A stretch of 64,000 nt of DNA from Bacteroidales bacterium. GTDB taxonomy: Bacteria > Bacteroidota > Bacteroidia > Bacteroidales > FEN-979. Shown here in pieces: positions 26,891-34,239 of this stretch (its first letter is position 1; the number at the start of each line of letters is the position of its first letter). The notes beneath the pieces are model-generated. The model made no database searches and had not been told where the DNA came from. It was given only the letters and a program-made list of their open reading frames with translations. Made by a program: the position numbers and the translations under genes. The stretch is from positions 1 to 64,000 of the forward strand of contig JANXZO010000042.1 of the NCBI GenBank assembly GCA_025355465.1. The letters are read 5' to 3'.

Positions 26891-27604
26891 ATGACGAAAC
26901 TGAGCGTAAATATAAATAAAATTGCCACGTTGAGGAATGCCCGAGGCGGCAATATGCCCGACCTGATCAGGACCGCGATCGATTGCGAGCGTTTTGGTGC
27001 AGAGGGGATAACTGTTCATCCAAGGCCCGATGAAAGGCATATCCGGTACAAGGATGTATTTGACCTGAAGCCATTACTCGCCACCGAATTTAATATTGAA
27101 GGTTTTCCCGGACAACCATTTATCGACCTGGTTCTCGCGATTAAACCCGCCCAGGTCACGCTGGTCCCTGACCCTCCGGATGCAATTACCTCAAATGCGG
27201 GTTGGGATACAATAAAAAACGAAGCGTTTTTGAAGGAGGTAATCAGTGAGTTTCAACGAAACGGTATCCGTACCTCCATTTTTATTGAAACCGATGTCAA
27301 CATGATCCGAAAGGCTGCGGATACCGGCACAGACCGTATTGAACTCTACACGGAGTCGTATGCCCGAGGCTATTCATTCGATCGCGAAGCCGCGGTGAAG
27401 CCTTTTTCTGAAGCAGCCACCGTAGCCTCAGAAGTTGGACTGGGATTAAATGCGGGGCATGATCTGAATCTTGAGAACCTCAGGTATTTCAGAGAAAACG
27501 TAAAGGGTTTGCTGGAGGTATCAATTGGCCATGCACTTATCTGTGATGCCCTGAACTTCGGACTGGAAAATACGATTCAACTATACCTCAGACAACTTAA
27601 ATAA
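26891..27604 (+). CDS. pdxJ: pyridoxine 5'-phosphate synthase
   Basis: A 237-residue TIM-barrel enzyme joining deoxyxylulose 5-phosphate and 1-amino-acetone 3-phosphate to give pyridoxine phosphate (vitamin B6). Seen: [17 protein letters not shown] at the N-terminus, [13 protein letters not shown] (40-52) with the catalytic His/Arg set, [14 protein letters not shown] and [15 protein letters not shown] near 190. Length matches the family. Note that it needs deoxyxylulose 5-phosphate, while isoprenoids here go by mevalonate, so the cell must keep a DXP synthase for B6. First gene of a likely operon with M19 dipeptidase, 23 bases downstream. Confidence 0.97.
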
Positions 27605-27627: not shown

Positions 27628-28869
27628 ATGAGACGTCTTTTGTTGTTTTCCTGTGCATTGCTTGCCGGACTTGGCAGTTTAGCCGGTAATGATGATCCCG
27701 CGATCATCGCGAAGGCCGCAAAGATACATGCTTCGGTAATTACCATCGATTCGCACACCGATACGCCTTTGCGGATGATGCAGCCGGGTTTTGATCTGAA
27801 TGTCTGGCACGATCCTCACAAAGAGTACTCCAAGGTAGATTTTCCACGGATGAAGGAAGGGGGGCTTGACGGTGTCTTTTTTGGCGTGTTTGTTTCGCAA
27901 GGGCCGAGGAATCCCGAATCGTTTGAAAAGGTGAAACAGCGGGCCCTTGTATTATTCGACACCATCAAGGCTGCTGTAGGACGGTATCCTGACATTGCCG
28001 GATTTGCTGTTTCAGATGCCGATGTAACCCGGTTGACGAAGCAGGGAAAAAGGTCTGTATTTATTGGAATTGAGAATGGATATGCCATTGGCAGAGACCT
28101 CTCACTCATCAGTACTTTTTATCTGAAGGGGACAAGGTATATCACCCTTTGTCATACCAAAAACAACGACATCTGCGACTCTTCGACCGACAGTACCGAA
28201 CACAACGGATTAAGTCCGTTTGGTTATGAGGTAGTACGTGAAATGAATGAAGTGGGAATAATGGTTGATGTTTCCCATATTTCGGACAAGGCATTGTATG
28301 ATGTCCTTTCTACATGTAAAGCTCCCGTGATCGCATCTCATTCTTGTGCCAGAGCACTCTGCAATAATCCGCGGAACCTCCCGGATGTCCTGCTGGCAGC
28401 TATTGCAAAGAATGGAGGAGTCATCCAGATGTGTATCCTCAGCGATTATGTAAAAACTCCCGAACCAAATCCGGCCAGGGATTCGGCCAGGGCTGCCGTA
28501 CGGAAGAAATTTCATGATTTCGACGGACTCACTGACGAGGAGATGAAAGCGGCGCGGACAGCCTGGAATGCCGTCAATGCGAAGTATCCGCAGAAGCTGG
28601 CCAATGTTTCAGATGTGGCAGATCATATCGACCACATCGTCAAAGTTGCAGGGATTAATCATGTGGGGATAGGTACTGATTTTGACGGCGGTGGTGGAGT
28701 TCAGGGATGTTATGACGCGGCTGAAATGGGCAACATCACCCTTGAGCTTGTCAAAAGAGGGTATTCTAAGAGTGAAATCCGCAAAATATGGGGTGGTAAC
28801 CTGATGCGCGTGTTGTCAAGAACGGATAAGATTGCACAACGATATAAAATTAGTTGTGGTTGTCGTTAA
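27628..28869 (+). CDS. exported membrane dipeptidase (peptidase family M19)
   Basis: A 413-residue zinc dipeptidase with a signal peptide (1-20). Seen: the metal motif IDSHTDTPLRMM (about 41-52), GIENGYAIG with the bridging Glu, DVSHISDKAL, ASHSCARAL and HVGIGTDFDGGGG near the C-terminus. These mark the M19 amidohydrolase fold that splits dipeptides, including some with a C-terminal D-residue. Location is periplasmic. A gene-end signal is not seen before the PrsW-like gene 21 bases further on, so they are probably co-transcribed. Confidence 0.93.
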   Translation: MRRLLLFSCALLAGLGSLAGNDDPAIIAKAAKIHASVITIDSHTDTPLRMMQPGFDLNVWHDPHKEYSKVDFPRMKEGGLDGVFFGVFVSQGPRNPESFEKVKQRALVLFDTIKAAVGRYPDIAGFAVSDADVTRLTKQGKRSVFIGIENGYAIGRDLSLISTFYLKGTRYITLCHTKNNDICDSSTDSTEHNGLSPFGYEVVREMNEVGIMVDVSHISDKALYDVLSTCKAPVIASHSCARALCNNPRNLPDVLLAAIAKNGGVIQMCILSDYVKTPEPNPARDSARAAVRKKFHDFDGLTDEEMKAARTAWNAVNAKYPQKLANVSDVADHIDHIVKVAGINHVGIGTDFDGGGGVQGCYDAAEMGNITLELVKRGYSKSEIRKIWGGNLMRVLSRTDKIAQRYKISCGCR

Positions 28870-28890: not shown

Positions 28891-29892
28891 GTGGTTAGTA
28901 AAATTGTCGTAAGTCTTATTCCGGTTTTTCTCCTGCTTTTATTATTGCTGTACCTCGACAGCATGAAACTGGTAAAAAAACATCTCCTGTCCCTTTGCCT
29001 GATTTGGGGTGTGATAAGTGCCATCATGAGTTTTTTTTCCAACACCTGGCTTATTCAACACCTTGGAATCCCTTTTGATACCTATTCGGGATTTGTAGCG
29101 CCAGTGCTTGAAGAAGTTATCAAACTCCTGTTATTATGGGTATTGGTGCGCAAAAACAGGATCGGGTTCATGATTGACGGAGCCATTTACGGCTTCTCCA
29201 TTGGCGCTGCATTTTCATTTTGCGAAAACCTCTATTATCTTTTTGCTTTTGCAGGAGAACAGGGCAATCTGGCAGTGTGGATCACCAGGGGCTTTGGAAC
29301 AGCCGTTATGCATTGCGGAACCACTGCGATCTTTGGGATCCTTTGCATGAGCGCCATCAACCGTAAAGCCAGCCTTGCAATGGCAACCATAACAGGTGCT
29401 GCAGCCGCAATCCTTATTCATGGGATATTCAACCAGTTTCTTCTTTCCCCGCTGGTCTCCACACTGTTGGTTCTTATCGTCATCCCGGCTACCATCGCGG
29501 TGATATTTAAGAACAATGAAGGAACAATACGCAAATGGCTTGAACTGGAATTTGATTCTGAGGTGGCCATGTTGCAAATGATCAGAAAAGGAAAATTCGC
29601 AGAGACCCGGACAGGTGAATTTCTGATGTCGGTAAAAAATCATTTTCCAACGGAGGTTGTTGTTGATATGTACTGCTTCATCAGCCTTTATCTTGAACTA
29701 TCCCTGAAAGCCAAAAGCATGATGATGCTTCGTGAAAATGATATCATCGTTGCTTCCGATCCCGAAACACCTGCTAAGCTCAAGGAATTGAAGGCCCTTG
29801 AGATTAGCATCGGAAAGGCAGGATACCTCGCCATTTCCCCGGTATTACGCATGAGCCGGAAAGACCTGTGGAAGATTTCGTCCCTGGGTTAA
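28891..29892 (+). CDS. PrsW-family intramembrane metalloprotease
   Basis: A 333-residue protein with 7-8 membrane helices in the first 215 residues and a soluble C-terminal domain. Seen within helices: EEVIK (74-78), FSFCEN (108-113) with Glu112, His141 and HGIFN with His177, matching the EExxK / FxxxE / HxxxD-type motifs of PrsW. Family knowledge: Bacillus PrsW cuts the anti-sigma RsiW at site 1 to free SigW. Here an ECF sigma gene and a one-pass candidate anti-sigma follow directly, so it may act on that protein. Start is GTG 28891; it gives the usual hydrophobic first helix and DSMKLVKK motif, which the next ATG would lose. Confidence 0.88.
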   Translation: MVSKIVVSLIPVFLLLLLLLYLDSMKLVKKHLLSLCLIWGVISAIMSFFSNTWLIQHLGIPFDTYSGFVAPVLEEVIKLLLLWVLVRKNRIGFMIDGAIYGFSIGAAFSFCENLYYLFAFAGEQGNLAVWITRGFGTAVMHCGTTAIFGILCMSAINRKASLAMATITGAAAAILIHGIFNQFLLSPLVSTLLVLIVIPATIAVIFKNNEGTIRKWLELEFDSEVAMLQMIRKGKFAETRTGEFLMSVKNHFPTEVVVDMYCFISLYLELSLKAKSMMMLRENDIIVASDPETPAKLKELKALEISIGKAGYLAISPVLRMSRKDLWKISSLG

Positions 29893-29941
29893 GCAGGAAA
29901 TTTCATATCTTTCACCAACTTTTTCAACTTTATCCGTATTT

Positions 29942-30487
29942 ATGACAGAAAAGGATGATAATGAACTTGTCTATGAAGTGATAAAGGGCAGTATCTCCTC
30001 CTTCGAAGTGCTCATTGACAGATATCAGAAACCCATCTTTAACCTGGTGCTAAAAATGGTTAGCGATACGGAAACAGCACGTGATTTAACACAAGATATT
30101 TTTTTAAAGGTCTTTGAAAAGTTGGGAAGTTTTGATTTCAGATACCGGTTTTTCAGTTGGTTATACAGAATTGCCATCAACACAACCACCGACTGGCTGA
30201 CTTCAAAACGCTCCATTATTAGTCGGGAGCAGGCTGACTTAATTGCCGGGGAAGAACCCGACGACAATCTGCGCGATGAACAGAGCAAAAGGCTTCATGC
30301 CGGGTTACGGCTGTTGCCGGGAGAATATCGCATTTTGTTGTTGCTGAAATATTATTGTGGATTTTCATATGAGGAGATTGCAGAGACAACCCATTTGCCT
30401 GTAAAGAAAATTAAATCCAGATTGTTTATTGCCAAGGAACAGTTAGCGAAGATTTTGATTGCAAAAGGATTTTTCGAAAATGAATGA
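29942..30487 (+). CDS. ECF-type RNA polymerase sigma factor
   Basis: A 181-residue sigma-70 family factor with only regions 2 and 4. Region 2 (about 18-90) has LTQDIFLKVFEKLGSF and RFFSWLYRIAINTTTDWL; region 4 (about 120-172) has LKYYCGFSYEEIAETTHLPVKKIKSRLFIAKEQL, a clear helix-turn-helix. Downstream, the candidate anti-sigma gene overlaps its stop by 8 bases. A near-consensus TATCTTTC lies about 35 bases upstream of the ATG, in the 49-base gap after the PrsW gene, so it may have its own or an autoregulated promoter. Targets unknown. Confidence 0.93.
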   Translation: MTEKDDNELVYEVIKGSISSFEVLIDRYQKPIFNLVLKMVSDTETARDLTQDIFLKVFEKLGSFDFRYRFFSWLYRIAINTTTDWLTSKRSIISREQADLIAGEEPDDNLRDEQSKRLHAGLRLLPGEYRILLLLKYYCGFSYEEIAETTHLPVKKIKSRLFIAKEQLAKILIAKGFFENE

Positions 30488-31169
30488 AAGGGATAATATA
30501 GAAACTTCACTGTGGGAACAAATCGAACGCCAGTTTGATCGCGAACGATCTGCTGCCGTAGAGGTCGATCTGAAAAAGGAAATACTAAATCAAATCAATA
30601 TGGAAAGCTATAAACAACCTCCAAAAAAGGAAGAAATCAGGGTCGTACAACGTTTTTGGTCAAGACCTGCATTTAAATTAGGATTCACTTTTGCCATGGG
30701 TGCATTTGTTGGTTTTTTGATTTTCAGCCTGCTTAACGTGAATCTTATCGGTACGGATAACCCGGCTCCTGAAATGAAAGGAACCCTTTACGATTCAAGG
30801 TCGTTTGACAACATGAGGACGGCGGATGTGCTTCAGTATGAAAGCCCGCTTGCGAAAGCAGTTTGCAATGTGAGGTACTCTGCAAAAGTTGTGGAATTGA
30901 GAATAGAACTTTCCTCACTTTACCCTGTAAAATCGACACTGGAGTTTGACTTTAACAATTTTGAAGTGCTCAATGTTCAGAATGTGCAGGTGAACGATCA
31001 GTCCACGGCCATGGCCGCGGCCAATTTTGTTCAGATCAACAATGTCGGAGACAATAAATTCATTGTTCAGCTATACAATAAAAATAGTCTGCCACACCAG
31101 ATCGATTTCAAGATTTATCAGTACGATTCCCCGATCTATCAAAATTCAGTTCAGGTGAATAAGGAGTAG
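30480..31169 (+). CDS. one-pass membrane protein, candidate anti-sigma factor
   Basis: A 229-residue protein: charged cytoplasmic N-terminus (1-62) with DLKKEILNQI, one membrane helix (about 66-86) and a periplasmic domain of about 140 residues. It overlaps the sigma gene by 8 bases, which is the classic position of an anti-sigma. It lacks the HxxxCxxC zinc motif of ZAS-type anti-sigmas, and I find no named domain. ATG 30480 is chosen over a TTG at 30459 because it fits the overlap and the TTG is inside sigma region 4. The periplasmic domain would be what the PrsW-like protease or another protease senses or cuts. Role inferred from position and topology. Confidence 0.75.
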   Translation: MNERDNIETSLWEQIERQFDRERSAAVEVDLKKEILNQINMESYKQPPKKEEIRVVQRFWSRPAFKLGFTFAMGAFVGFLIFSLLNVNLIGTDNPAPEMKGTLYDSRSFDNMRTADVLQYESPLAKAVCNVRYSAKVVELRIELSSLYPVKSTLEFDFNNFEVLNVQNVQVNDQSTAMAAANFVQINNVGDNKFIVQLYNKNSLPHQIDFKIYQYDSPIYQNSVQVNKE

Positions 31170-31182
31170 TTATAAAAAGGGT

Positions 31183-34100
31183 TCATCTTTTTCTGAAGTT
31201 CTCAAAATAGTTGATCCCCTTTCTCAGGATATCCGTTAACAGGGTAAAATAGAGGCTCAGGGACATCAACCAAATAACTCCGAGGTTGAACCAGAAGGTG
31301 TCGATTACGATATTGCCGATAAATTTGACCGGCGCATAGAAATGAGCCCGGCCGTTCCGGGACAGCGGTTCCATAAACACGGGGTCTTTTTTACGAATGA
31401 GTTGATCCTGGTCTGCAATAATTTTATTTTCACTCCCTTTGTTCAGCACAAGATCGGCCAGGTTGTCATTGTAATAGGTTTCCCTGAATTTGTAAACCGC
31501 CTCTTCGCCCATATCGGAAACAAGTTTTGCATACAGGGCATCCCGCCTGGAGGTTACTTCCGAGAGGCGCGAGGAAAAATGCCGGCTTAAGGAATCAAGG
31601 TAATTTTTGGCCAGGTCGACGATCCGGATGTCAAAATTTTTCGCCGACATTGTTTTAAGCCCTGTCAATGGTACGAACCCTGCCTCCGTTTGCAAAAGAG
31701 GAATTTCGTGTTGAAGGATGGAAACGAACCTTGTGGTGGCTTTCTGATTCTCCTTTTTGATGGAATTCCGCTGACATTCGTCAAATTCTGATTGAAGGGT
31801 CGGAATAACATAGGAGGTGATGTAGCCGTAACGTGAGATCTCCTTATCGTACGGATAGAAAATCCGTTCGTATTTATTGTTTCGGAACTGTTCTACCGCA
31901 AGGGCTTCAAAAGTCCACCTGGAGGTCATGACATCGCCAACCAGGGGGACGTTGACCCGCGAAGCAATGGATGGATTCAGGTAATCGAATCCTACGATGG
32001 TTCCGCTAAGCAGCAACTGGGGGACCAGGATGAAAGGGATGAGGATATAAATGGCAACCACAGAATTGAGTCCGGCAGAGATGTTCAGCCCCACCAGGTT
32101 TGCGAAACAAGAGGTAGAGAAAAGAATGAGCCAGTAACTCAGGGTCATGCCATGTATCCCGAGAATCAGGTTGCCTGCCAACACATATAGCAGGGTTTGA
32201 ATGCCGGAAAGAACAAAAAGGAGGATGATTTTTGAATTGATGTAGCTGAACCTGCTTAGGTGGAGGAACGCCTCCCTTTTTAGTATTTTACGGTCCTTGA
32301 TGATCTCTTCGGCGCTGACCATCATGCCAAGGAAAAGCGAGACCACTACGCTCATAAACAGATATGGAACCAGGTTGCGGTTATCGCTGAAGACATACTC
32401 GTCGCCGAATTTATACCTGGTCAGAAATGCGAGAAGTGCAGCAAGGAATGGAGCTTCAAGCAGGTTGATCAGCATATACTGTCGGTTGGTGACCTTCGTT
32501 AACAAGTTACGGATGCTGAAGATGCGGAACTGTTTGAACAGCCCCGGAATCTTGAAATAACTCCTGGGCACTTCTTGTTTTTCTTCGGTTACCTTAAGAA
32601 ACGGCTGTATTTGCTGCCGGAAGGCGTTATACCATTCAGCCGGGGTCTTTTTTCTGTTGCCCGTGAACCGGCCATATTCATTGATGATTTTGGTTTCGGT
32701 TATTTGCAGTAGTTGTTCGGGGTTCACATAACCGCAACTCTGGCATTCGCTCTCGTCGGGATTGACATGGTTCCCAGCCTGTTTGAAGTAGGTGAGTGCA
32801 TCTATCGGATTTCCGAAATAGATTGGGTAGCCACCTTTGTCGAGGATGAATATTTTGTCGAATAATTTGTAAATATCAGAGGATGGCTGATGGATGTTAA
32901 CCACAACCAACCTTCCTTTCAGTGTCTGCTCCTTCAGCAGCAACATCACCATTTCCGAGTCCATGGAGGAGAGTCCGCTGGTAGGTTCATCGGCGAAGAG
33001 CACAGATGGCTCACGAATCAATTCCAGAGCGATGTTCAATCTTTTACGTTGTCCGCCGCTGATGAACTTATTAATGGGGTCACCGACGGTAAGGTTTCGT
33101 ATTCCGATCAGGTCAATATCTCTTAAGACCTGCATCACAGAACGGATTATTTGCCGTTTGGAGAAATCCCGGAAGCAAAGTTTTGCATTATAATAGAGGT
33201 TCTGGAAAACAGTAAGTTCTTCAATCAAAAGGTCGTCCTGTGGTACGAAACCAATAATCCCCTGGAGTTTCTCCTTATCGCTTTCAAGGTTATTTCCATT
33301 GATAAGGATACTTCCATCATTCAAAGGCAGATTTCCGTTAAGTACGTTCAGCAGGGTTGACTTTCCTGCACCGCTGCCTCCCATCACTCCGATAAGTTCC
33401 CCGGAATTGGTGGTGAAGCTGAATGGATGGATGCCGTTTGTGCTGTTTTTGAAACGGAATTCAATCTCCTTGGCTGTAAACTCAATCGTGATTTTTTCCG
33501 ACGTATGCAGAAAGCAGGAAACTGCATCGGCATAATAGACAGGTGCAATTTTCAGGTTCTTAATGATGGTCCCGTTCGAAAATACAAAGGAACGGAATGG
33601 ATGTATGATATGTCCGTTAAGGAATAGTTCATCACCCCCGGTGTACCTGCAAATCATGGTACGAGAAGAGGGTGCAAAGAGGATAAACATCTTTCCATCA
33701 AGATGTTCACGATGAAGAAGTTTTTTCCTTGTTTGCTTTTCAGACCTGTCGGAAGTAATGATCAGGAGGTGGTCAGGGTGAATGCCGTCACCCATTGGAT
33801 TGGTAATAAACGCTACCGAATCATTGAACTCCTGGTCGGGAGCATTGAAAGAGGATTTGAATATCTTCAGAAAGCCATGGAATCTTTGCTCCGCTTCGGG
33901 TGATGCCCCATTCTGACCCCCTGAAATTTCATTCAGGAATTCCAGGAACTTAATGAATACGATGAGCCTGTCACGGGAAGTAAGATGTTTTTTGATTTTC
34001 TGACAGATGGCTGCAGTTTTTTCAACGACGTCGGAATCGCCAATCTCTGTCTCATCAGGTTGATGAAATTGCACCAGTTCATCGAAGAGTTTCAGGTATT

Positions 34101-34239
34101 CATCCAGTTCCTGTGCATTCAGGTGCTGACTAAGGTAGGATTCGAGAATTTTCCGTGAATCATTAGAAATATTACTTTTAACCGAGGCAGCAACAATGGC
34201 AAAAAGTTGCACCAGGGCCATCAGGATGGGTTCGGACAT
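31183..34239 (-). CDS. ABCG-type transporter (ATPase-permease fusion) with TerB-like N-terminus
   Basis: A 1018-residue protein. Order: helical N-terminal region (about 1-110, resembling TerB-like bundles), a beta-rich FHA-like or linker part (about 140-250), an ABC ATPase (about 255-500) with Walker A GVMGGSGAGKST, Q-loop FVPQDD, signature ISGGQRKRLNIALE, Walker B VLFADEPTSG and H-loop VNIHQPSS, then DESECQSCGYVNPE with a Cys pair, and an ABC-2 type permease (about 590-790 and a last helix near 990) with a large extracytoplasmic loop between. ATPase-first order is that of the ABCG/White group. Such giant forms are common in Bacteroidetes; substrate unknown. Transcribed alone; convergent with the anti-sigma gene, 13 bases apart. 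Confidence 0.88.
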   Translation of the reverse strand: MSEPILMALVQLFAIVAASVKSNISNDSRKILESYLSQHLNAQELDEYLKLFDELVQFHQPDETEIGDSDVVEKTAAICQKIKKHLTSRDRLIVFIKFLEFLNEISGGQNGASPEAEQRFHGFLKIFKSSFNAPDQEFNDSVAFITNPMGDGIHPDHLLIITSDRSEKQTRKKLLHREHLDGKMFILFAPSSRTMICRYTGGDELFLNGHIIHPFRSFVFSNGTIIKNLKIAPVYYADAVSCFLHTSEKITIEFTAKEIEFRFKNSTNGIHPFSFTTNSGELIGVMGGSGAGKSTLLNVLNGNLPLNDGSILINGNNLESDKEKLQGIIGFVPQDDLLIEELTVFQNLYYNAKLCFRDFSKRQIIRSVMQVLRDIDLIGIRNLTVGDPINKFISGGQRKRLNIALELIREPSVLFADEPTSGLSSMDSEMVMLLLKEQTLKGRLVVVNIHQPSSDIYKLFDKIFILDKGGYPIYFGNPIDALTYFKQAGNHVNPDESECQSCGYVNPEQLLQITETKIINEYGRFTGNRKKTPAEWYNAFRQQIQPFLKVTEEKQEVPRSYFKIPGLFKQFRIFSIRNLLTKVTNRQYMLINLLEAPFLAALLAFLTRYKFGDEYVFSDNRNLVPYLFMSVVVSLFLGMMVSAEEIIKDRKILKREAFLHLSRFSYINSKIILLFVLSGIQTLLYVLAGNLILGIHGMTLSYWLILFSTSCFANLVGLNISAGLNSVVAIYILIPFILVPQLLLSGTIVGFDYLNPSIASRVNVPLVGDVMTSRWTFEALAVEQFRNNKYERIFYPYDKEISRYGYITSYVIPTLQSEFDECQRNSIKKENQKATTRFVSILQHEIPLLQTEAGFVPLTGLKTMSAKNFDIRIVDLAKNYLDSLSRHFSSRLSEVTSRRDALYAKLVSDMGEEAVYKFRETYYNDNLADLVLNKGSENKIIADQDQLIRKKDPVFMEPLSRNGRAHFYAPVKFIGNIVIDTFWFNLGVIWLMSLSLYFTLLTDILRKGINYFENFRKR

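Follow-up and report, generated by a model that had tools for sequence, protein, structure and literature searches.

A PrsW, ECF sigma factor and anti-sigma locus in a Bacteroidales genome, probably the remnant of a wider intramembrane-proteolysis module

Three adjacent forward-strand genes in the window (the whole 64-kb stretch of Bacteroidales DNA that was analysed) encode, in this order, a PrsW-family intramembrane protease (28891..29892; GTG start, 333 aa, Pfam PF13367), an ECF sigma factor of 181 aa (29942..30487; Sigma70_r2 and Sigma70_r4_2) and a single-pass membrane protein of 229 aa (30480..31169; ATG at 30480), a putative anti-sigma factor whose intact relatives match the RsiW/RseA anti-sigma domains. 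Judging from sequence comparisons, the trio is probably a regulated-intramembrane-proteolysis circuit of the sigmaW/RsiW/PrsW type, of which the window copy is a stripped remnant, eroding or repurposed. The wider module in which relatives carry the trio appears to be the more interesting finding.

In such a circuit the anti-sigma factor would hold the sigma factor at the membrane; PrsW would cut it first, on the outer side, near a membrane-proximal GT box, and a second, inner cut would be made by a site-2 protease, the only one of the window genome being G000:C61 (Peptidase_M50, E 1e-53). The freed sigma factor would transcribe its own gene and, in relatives, also genes for GT-box proteins and an outer-membrane metalloprotease.

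The protease, the sigma factor and its predicted promoter

The PrsW protein scored 78.1 bits against PF13367 (Pfam cut-off 23.5, E 9e-22) and 24.1 bits against the Bacillus-type NCBIfam model NF033739, for which the equivalog cut-off is 225; by these profile scores it is a member of the PF13367 family and not a Bacillus equivalog. The EExxK, FxxxE and His motifs are hallmarks of PrsW (PMC4602095). The first-pass annotation of this DNA had called them intact, and all are present: E74/E75/K78 (EExxK), F108/E112 (FxxxE), H141 and H177 are invariant across 56 relatives and sit in transmembrane (TM) helices 3–6 of the AlphaFold2 model (mean pLDDT 86.5). Seven TM helices are predicted, along with an all-alpha C-terminal cytosolic domain (residues 207–333, about 29509–29889, + strand). 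This domain had no Pfam or PDB match and Foldseek found no relative of it; it is present in every locus, whether sigma is there or not, and is conserved rather than variable. PrsW is present in a single copy in the window genome.

The sigma factor matched PF04542 and PF08281 above cut-off and scored 92.7 against TIGR02937 (cut-off 42.9); it has regions 2 and 4 only, as ECF sigma factors do. Its top NCBIfam scores were to RpoE (104 bits) and SigW (101 bits), both under the equivalog cut-offs, and it is 58–62% identical to its nearest relatives.

Before the sigma gene lies a predicted ECF promoter, CCAACTT-N14-GTATT (29915..29940, + strand); the CCAACTT consensus resembles the −35 element of SigW (PMC6713349). 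This was the single match within the window, with a mean of 0.03 expected by chance. CCAACTT-N14/15-GTAWT or a close variant was found in 32 of 37 gaps between PrsW and sigma genes (the window and 31 of 36 relatives) and in 1 of the 18 gaps at loci lacking sigma; these gaps are often shorter than the sigma-positive ones, which somewhat favours absence of the element. From the conservation of this promoter-like element we infer that the sigma factor would be autoregulated. A regulon scan of the window genome returned three sites against seven for a reversed control pattern; thus, only the sigma promoter is credible in this genome. The predicted −10 element is all but adjacent to the ATG of sigma (29942), only 3–5 nt ahead of it in the window (29936–29944) as in most PrsW–sigma gaps, and the transcript would therefore be leaderless or begin inside the gene.

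The anti-sigma domain and its loss together with sigma

Searched as a single protein, the membrane protein of the window gave no Pfam, NCBIfam or PDB match, and single sequences gave just sub-threshold matches to zf-HC2 and RseA_N; the identity of the domain emerged solely from a profile built on relatives. With the N-terminal domains of 27 relatives in the profile, the best PDB match was RsiW (5wuq_C, E 1.5e-7, positions 5–76 of 79) and the second was RseA (1or7_C, E 1e-3). In the AlphaFold2 model of an intact relative, L083, helices span residues 3–14, 20–32, 34–55 and 63–69, and a TM helix (94–117) is followed by a disordered stretch with the GT box and then by an Ig-like beta-sandwich; for this periplasmic domain the pLDDT is about 90, and Foldseek returned adaptin-ear and cohesin-like folds (E about 1e-4). 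By profile and model, the relatives carry a complete four-helix class I anti-sigma domain with its zinc cysteines replaced. The HxxxCxxC motif is absent from every aligned relative domain, with no Cys at those positions; the motif is missing in about 44% of class I anti-sigma domains (PMC7406223). The absence of this ZAS zinc motif from the window protein, which we confirm, had been taken as a sign of a new kind of anti-sigma. This did not hold: the relatives have an ordinary class I domain, with RsiW as its nearest and RseA as its next nearest match, and the window copy is the same domain with helices 1–2 deleted. A class II (CnrY-like) anti-sigma was considered as well; it was dropped once the intact relatives showed a class I domain and survives for the shortened window copy.

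The PrsW subfamily was represented by 78 loci when 100 related genomes and the GTDB species contigs were searched; as PrsW served as the entry point, sigma pairs lacking it are under-sampled, and counts across the loci are not phylogenetically independent. The first-pass annotation had reported a PrsW gene directly before a sigma gene and a membrane protein gene overlapping it by 8 nt. The coordinates agree, and the search for the trio, which it had proposed for other Bacteroidota, showed PrsW immediately ahead of the sigma and membrane-protein genes in 36 of the 78 loci. Five further loci have the order sigma, membrane protein, GT-box protein (here called cargo), outer-membrane protein, PrsW. 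Since the arrangement is conserved in 36 relative loci and in five with the second gene order, it is not due to chance. Carriers include Bacteroidales, Prolixibacteraceae, Lentimicrobiaceae and Calditrichota; on an Ignavibacteriota contig the end of a membrane-protein gene is followed by cargo, outer-membrane protein and PrsW. The titles of L143, L144 and L084 (Alphaproteobacteria, Hyphomicrobiales and Draconibacterium orientale) look like those of mislabelled MAGs; L143 is nearly identical to the Bacteroidales locus L149, and L144 and L084 group with Bacteroidales loci.

The 41 sigma-linked membrane proteins have the anti-sigma domain, and all nine without an adjacent sigma gene (L090, L099, L102, L104, L108, L159 and the copies in G041, G034 and G037:C208) are without it, most of them starting at a methionine just past the domain. 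The nine cases represent perhaps four separate events. Such repeated joint losses of sigma and precisely the anti-sigma domain amount to natural deletion experiments; this co-loss is the best indirect support for the first ∼70 residues of the intact membrane protein serving the sigma factor. The TM and periplasmic part persists where sigma, and in some cases PrsW too, is missing; thus, it has another role. In G041, G034 and G037:C208 (L078–L080) the membrane protein gene, with no anti-sigma domain, sigma or PrsW, stands alone at the same site, behind the M19 dipeptidase gene.

The single sigma-less locus that has the promoter element, L098 (also L190; G010:C205), is a natural deletion of sigma and anti-sigma: between PrsW and the cargo gene it retains the promoter and, behind it, a dead sigma gene reduced to about 35 codons. 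At another locus of that genome, L097, sigma and anti-sigma are present and cargo is absent.

In the window an M19 membrane dipeptidase gene (27628..28869, + strand) is a conserved neighbour, with pdxJ (26891–27604) upstream of it; together they form the setting in which one branch of the family is inserted, and they lie outside the circuit. On the other side (31183–34239) there are a convergent gene for a 1018-aa ABC transporter fused with an ABC-2 membrane part and then a gene for a 283-aa family-less protein; this pair, with an adenosine deaminase gene, is syntenic in sigma-less relatives.

The GT-box module and the status of the window copy

Downstream of the trio, most relatives carry between one and four copies of a gene for a GT-box (COIL) protein, the cargo; it is 310–460 aa long, has a TM helix and shows a conserved segment next to the membrane. 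Then comes a gene for a protein of ∼980 aa with a signal peptide, a HExxH metalloprotease-like part (33 of 33), a weak propeller match and an Omp85-like barrel. The trio had been described as a self-contained signalling cassette; the three genes do form a conserved unit, but with these additions in most relatives it is not self-contained. On the PrsW tree, whose deep branches are weakly supported, the five-gene set is scattered through the clades, which fits a module that is ancestral and was lost repeatedly. Three to four tandem cargo gene copies occur in L089, L112, L131 and L142, and degenerate FDxEKLG repeats in the C-terminal part of the cargo in some loci (L121, L130, L142 and L154).

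The GT box, defined as G[TS][MILVF] (or GA[MF]) no more than 35 residues after the TM helix, was found in 44 of 48 anti-sigma-like proteins and in all 62 cargo proteins, against a background of 0.12–0.15 per 35 residues. When anti-sigma and cargo profiles were compared, the GT-box region alone matched, at 88% on fragments and at a weak 23% over the full length, so that the case for a shared box rests mainly on position and counts. In the window the box reads KGTL (30777..30788, + strand), between the TM helix (residues 67–85, 30678..30734, + strand, from hydrophobicity) and the predicted periplasmic Ig-like beta-sandwich domain (30816..31157, + strand, from the L083 model and Foldseek). We propose the GT box as the candidate region of PrsW recognition or cutting. 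The N-terminal TM helix of the cargo in L103, L106, L110 and L118 ends in a lipobox-like cysteine, suggesting lipoproteins, and these cysteines argue against one universal cut.

The promoter element also precedes the GT-box cargo gene at 13 of 37 loci and, in the genomes of four relatives, seven of eight dispersed cargo paralogues (five strict, two relaxed), as compared with none of 328 unrelated ORFs. The same promoter-like element lies 44–46 nt before short peptides that look like NHLP-leader RiPP precursors, with a double-Gly end (L197, G033:C221; L203, G028:C52). Two proteins of ∼125 aa (L196 and L206, G033) with a TM helix, a GT box and a C-terminal FCSGGG have the same promoter.

Tentatively, we suggest for the intact relatives a scheme that we would still call doubtful: one PrsW, with its unique cytosolic domain, would trim both the anti-sigma factor and the TM-anchored GT-box proteins, the freed sigma factor would transcribe the genes for the GT-box proteins and the outer-membrane metalloprotease-barrel, and the cargo, having the same GT box, could compete with the anti-sigma for PrsW and in this way signal its own supply. 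If true, Bacteroidota and neighbouring phyla would have a surface-protein system not described so far, with a built-in feedback on cargo supply.

It is nearly an even question whether PrsW mainly processes the GT-box proteins, with sigma and anti-sigma as a regulatory add-on reporting the occupancy or activity of PrsW, and we lean slightly against it. PrsW, COIL and outer-membrane protein genes occur without sigma and anti-sigma in separate clades (L098; L121/146/147; L130/138; L135; L154/156; L132/134/145/151), the GT box is common to both substrate classes, and polymorphic toxins offer a precedent for an export or release peptidase (PMC3482391). Still, the shared motif is short and its profile–profile score modest; moreover, L090, L099, L102 and L104 keep PrsW and a short membrane protein with no cargo, thus cargo is not the sole reason for PrsW to exist.

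Returning to the trio as a sigmaW/RsiW/PrsW-type circuit, we consider the state of its window copy. In every close sigma-carrying relative the anti-sigma has 31 more residues than in the window, all within the N-terminal domain. DNA alignment with five relatives placed a single clean in-frame 93-nt gap in the window at about 30503/30504; this deletion is known from one assembly, and an assembly error is possible in principle. The class I domain, no longer complete, is reduced to a predicted remnant (30480..30602, + strand; from alignments of relatives and the L083 model) of the first eight residues, the end of helix 3 and helix 4, helices 1–2 and the start of helix 3 being gone. The window has no zinc motif because the deletion removed the segment where the motif would lie. 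Class I domains bind sigma region 4 through helix 1 and region 2 through helix 4 (PMC7406223); the window protein, now without the region-4-contacting helix, may not inhibit sigma at all. Neither the COIL nor the outer-membrane gene was found in the window genome by the same type of query that finds them in eight and seven relatives, respectively. Across 14 genomes an intact anti-sigma domain goes with the presence of cargo and barrel genes, and a shortened or missing one with their absence (Fisher 6e-4, the genomes not being independent; in G041, G034 and G042 the barrel gene alone was searched).

We consider it unlikely that the window cassette is fully functional, with helix 4 and the end of helix 3 sufficing to block sigma region 2. 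Such an anti-sigma would be minimal, of about the size of a CnrY-type class II anchor. The reading frames, the gene overlap, the promoter and the PrsW motifs are all preserved, and the PrsW branch of the window is not longer than that of its neighbour (0.27 vs 0.33). In L112, too, the anti-sigma has no recognisable helix 1–2 segment and adjoins an intact sigma gene and four cargo genes; thus, the reduction is not quite unique to the window. Three points speak against full function: contact with sigma region 4 through helix 1 is general among class I domains (PMC7406223), helices 1–2 are retained in all of the closer relatives that carry sigma, and the window genome has lost the cargo genes. 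Under the remnant reading, the window sigma would probably be held weakly, by helix 4 on region 2, since helices 1–2 are deleted, and would have no recognisable target except itself, since the GT-box and outer-membrane genes are gone. As PrsW and sigma are still intact open reading frames, a weak or altered function is possible.

That PrsW is a coincidental neighbour with an unrelated job, the anti-sigma being cleaved by another site-1 protease, is very improbable: site-1 proteases do differ between anti-sigmas, e.g. signal peptidases for RsiV and RsiP (PMC10202637), but PrsW adjacency is conserved in 36 loci, PrsW stays in the gene set in the second gene order in Bacteroidota and Calditrichota, and the best match of the anti-sigma domain is RsiW, a known PrsW substrate.

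Comparison with known systems

Bacteroidota have many ECF sigma factors, only about 6% of them with an adjacent class I anti-sigma (PMC7406223). Our literature search found no paper on PrsW circuits in Bacteroidota, and the wider module appears undescribed in the literature searched. With protease, sigma, anti-sigma, promoter and predicted targets together, the PrsW substrates and the sigma regulon become directly testable.

The circuit resembles the sigmaW/RsiW/PrsW/RasP system of Bacillus subtilis in its PrsW-family protease with EExxK and His motifs, in an ECF sigma factor that scores highly against SigW, in the class I anti-sigma domain of the intact relatives with RsiW as its best PDB match, in a predicted promoter with an AAC-type −35 and a GTA-type −10, and in the presence of a site-2 protease in the genome. 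It differs in that the protease gene directly precedes the sigma gene, PrsW has an extra C-terminal domain, the zinc cysteines of the anti-sigma are replaced and a periplasmic Ig-like domain is present; relatives also link GT-box cargo and an outer-membrane metalloprotease to the system, and in the window the anti-sigma domain is partly deleted. With the sigmaE/RseA system of Escherichia coli it shares a zinc-free class I domain on a single-pass membrane protein. The site-1 protease, however, is a different one, DegS in the case of RseA, and PrsW and the GT box are absent in the E. coli system.

A PrsW-dependent export of toxins, with PrsW fused to the toxin, was proposed by Zhang et al. 2012 (PMC3482391). 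The idea of PrsW releasing exported proteins with variable C-terminal parts is similar. The N-terminal PrsW fusion typical of that export was not seen in our loci, PrsW being a separate protein; unlike the toxins, the cargo is separately encoded, has its own TM anchor and would be under an ECF sigma factor that shares the protease.
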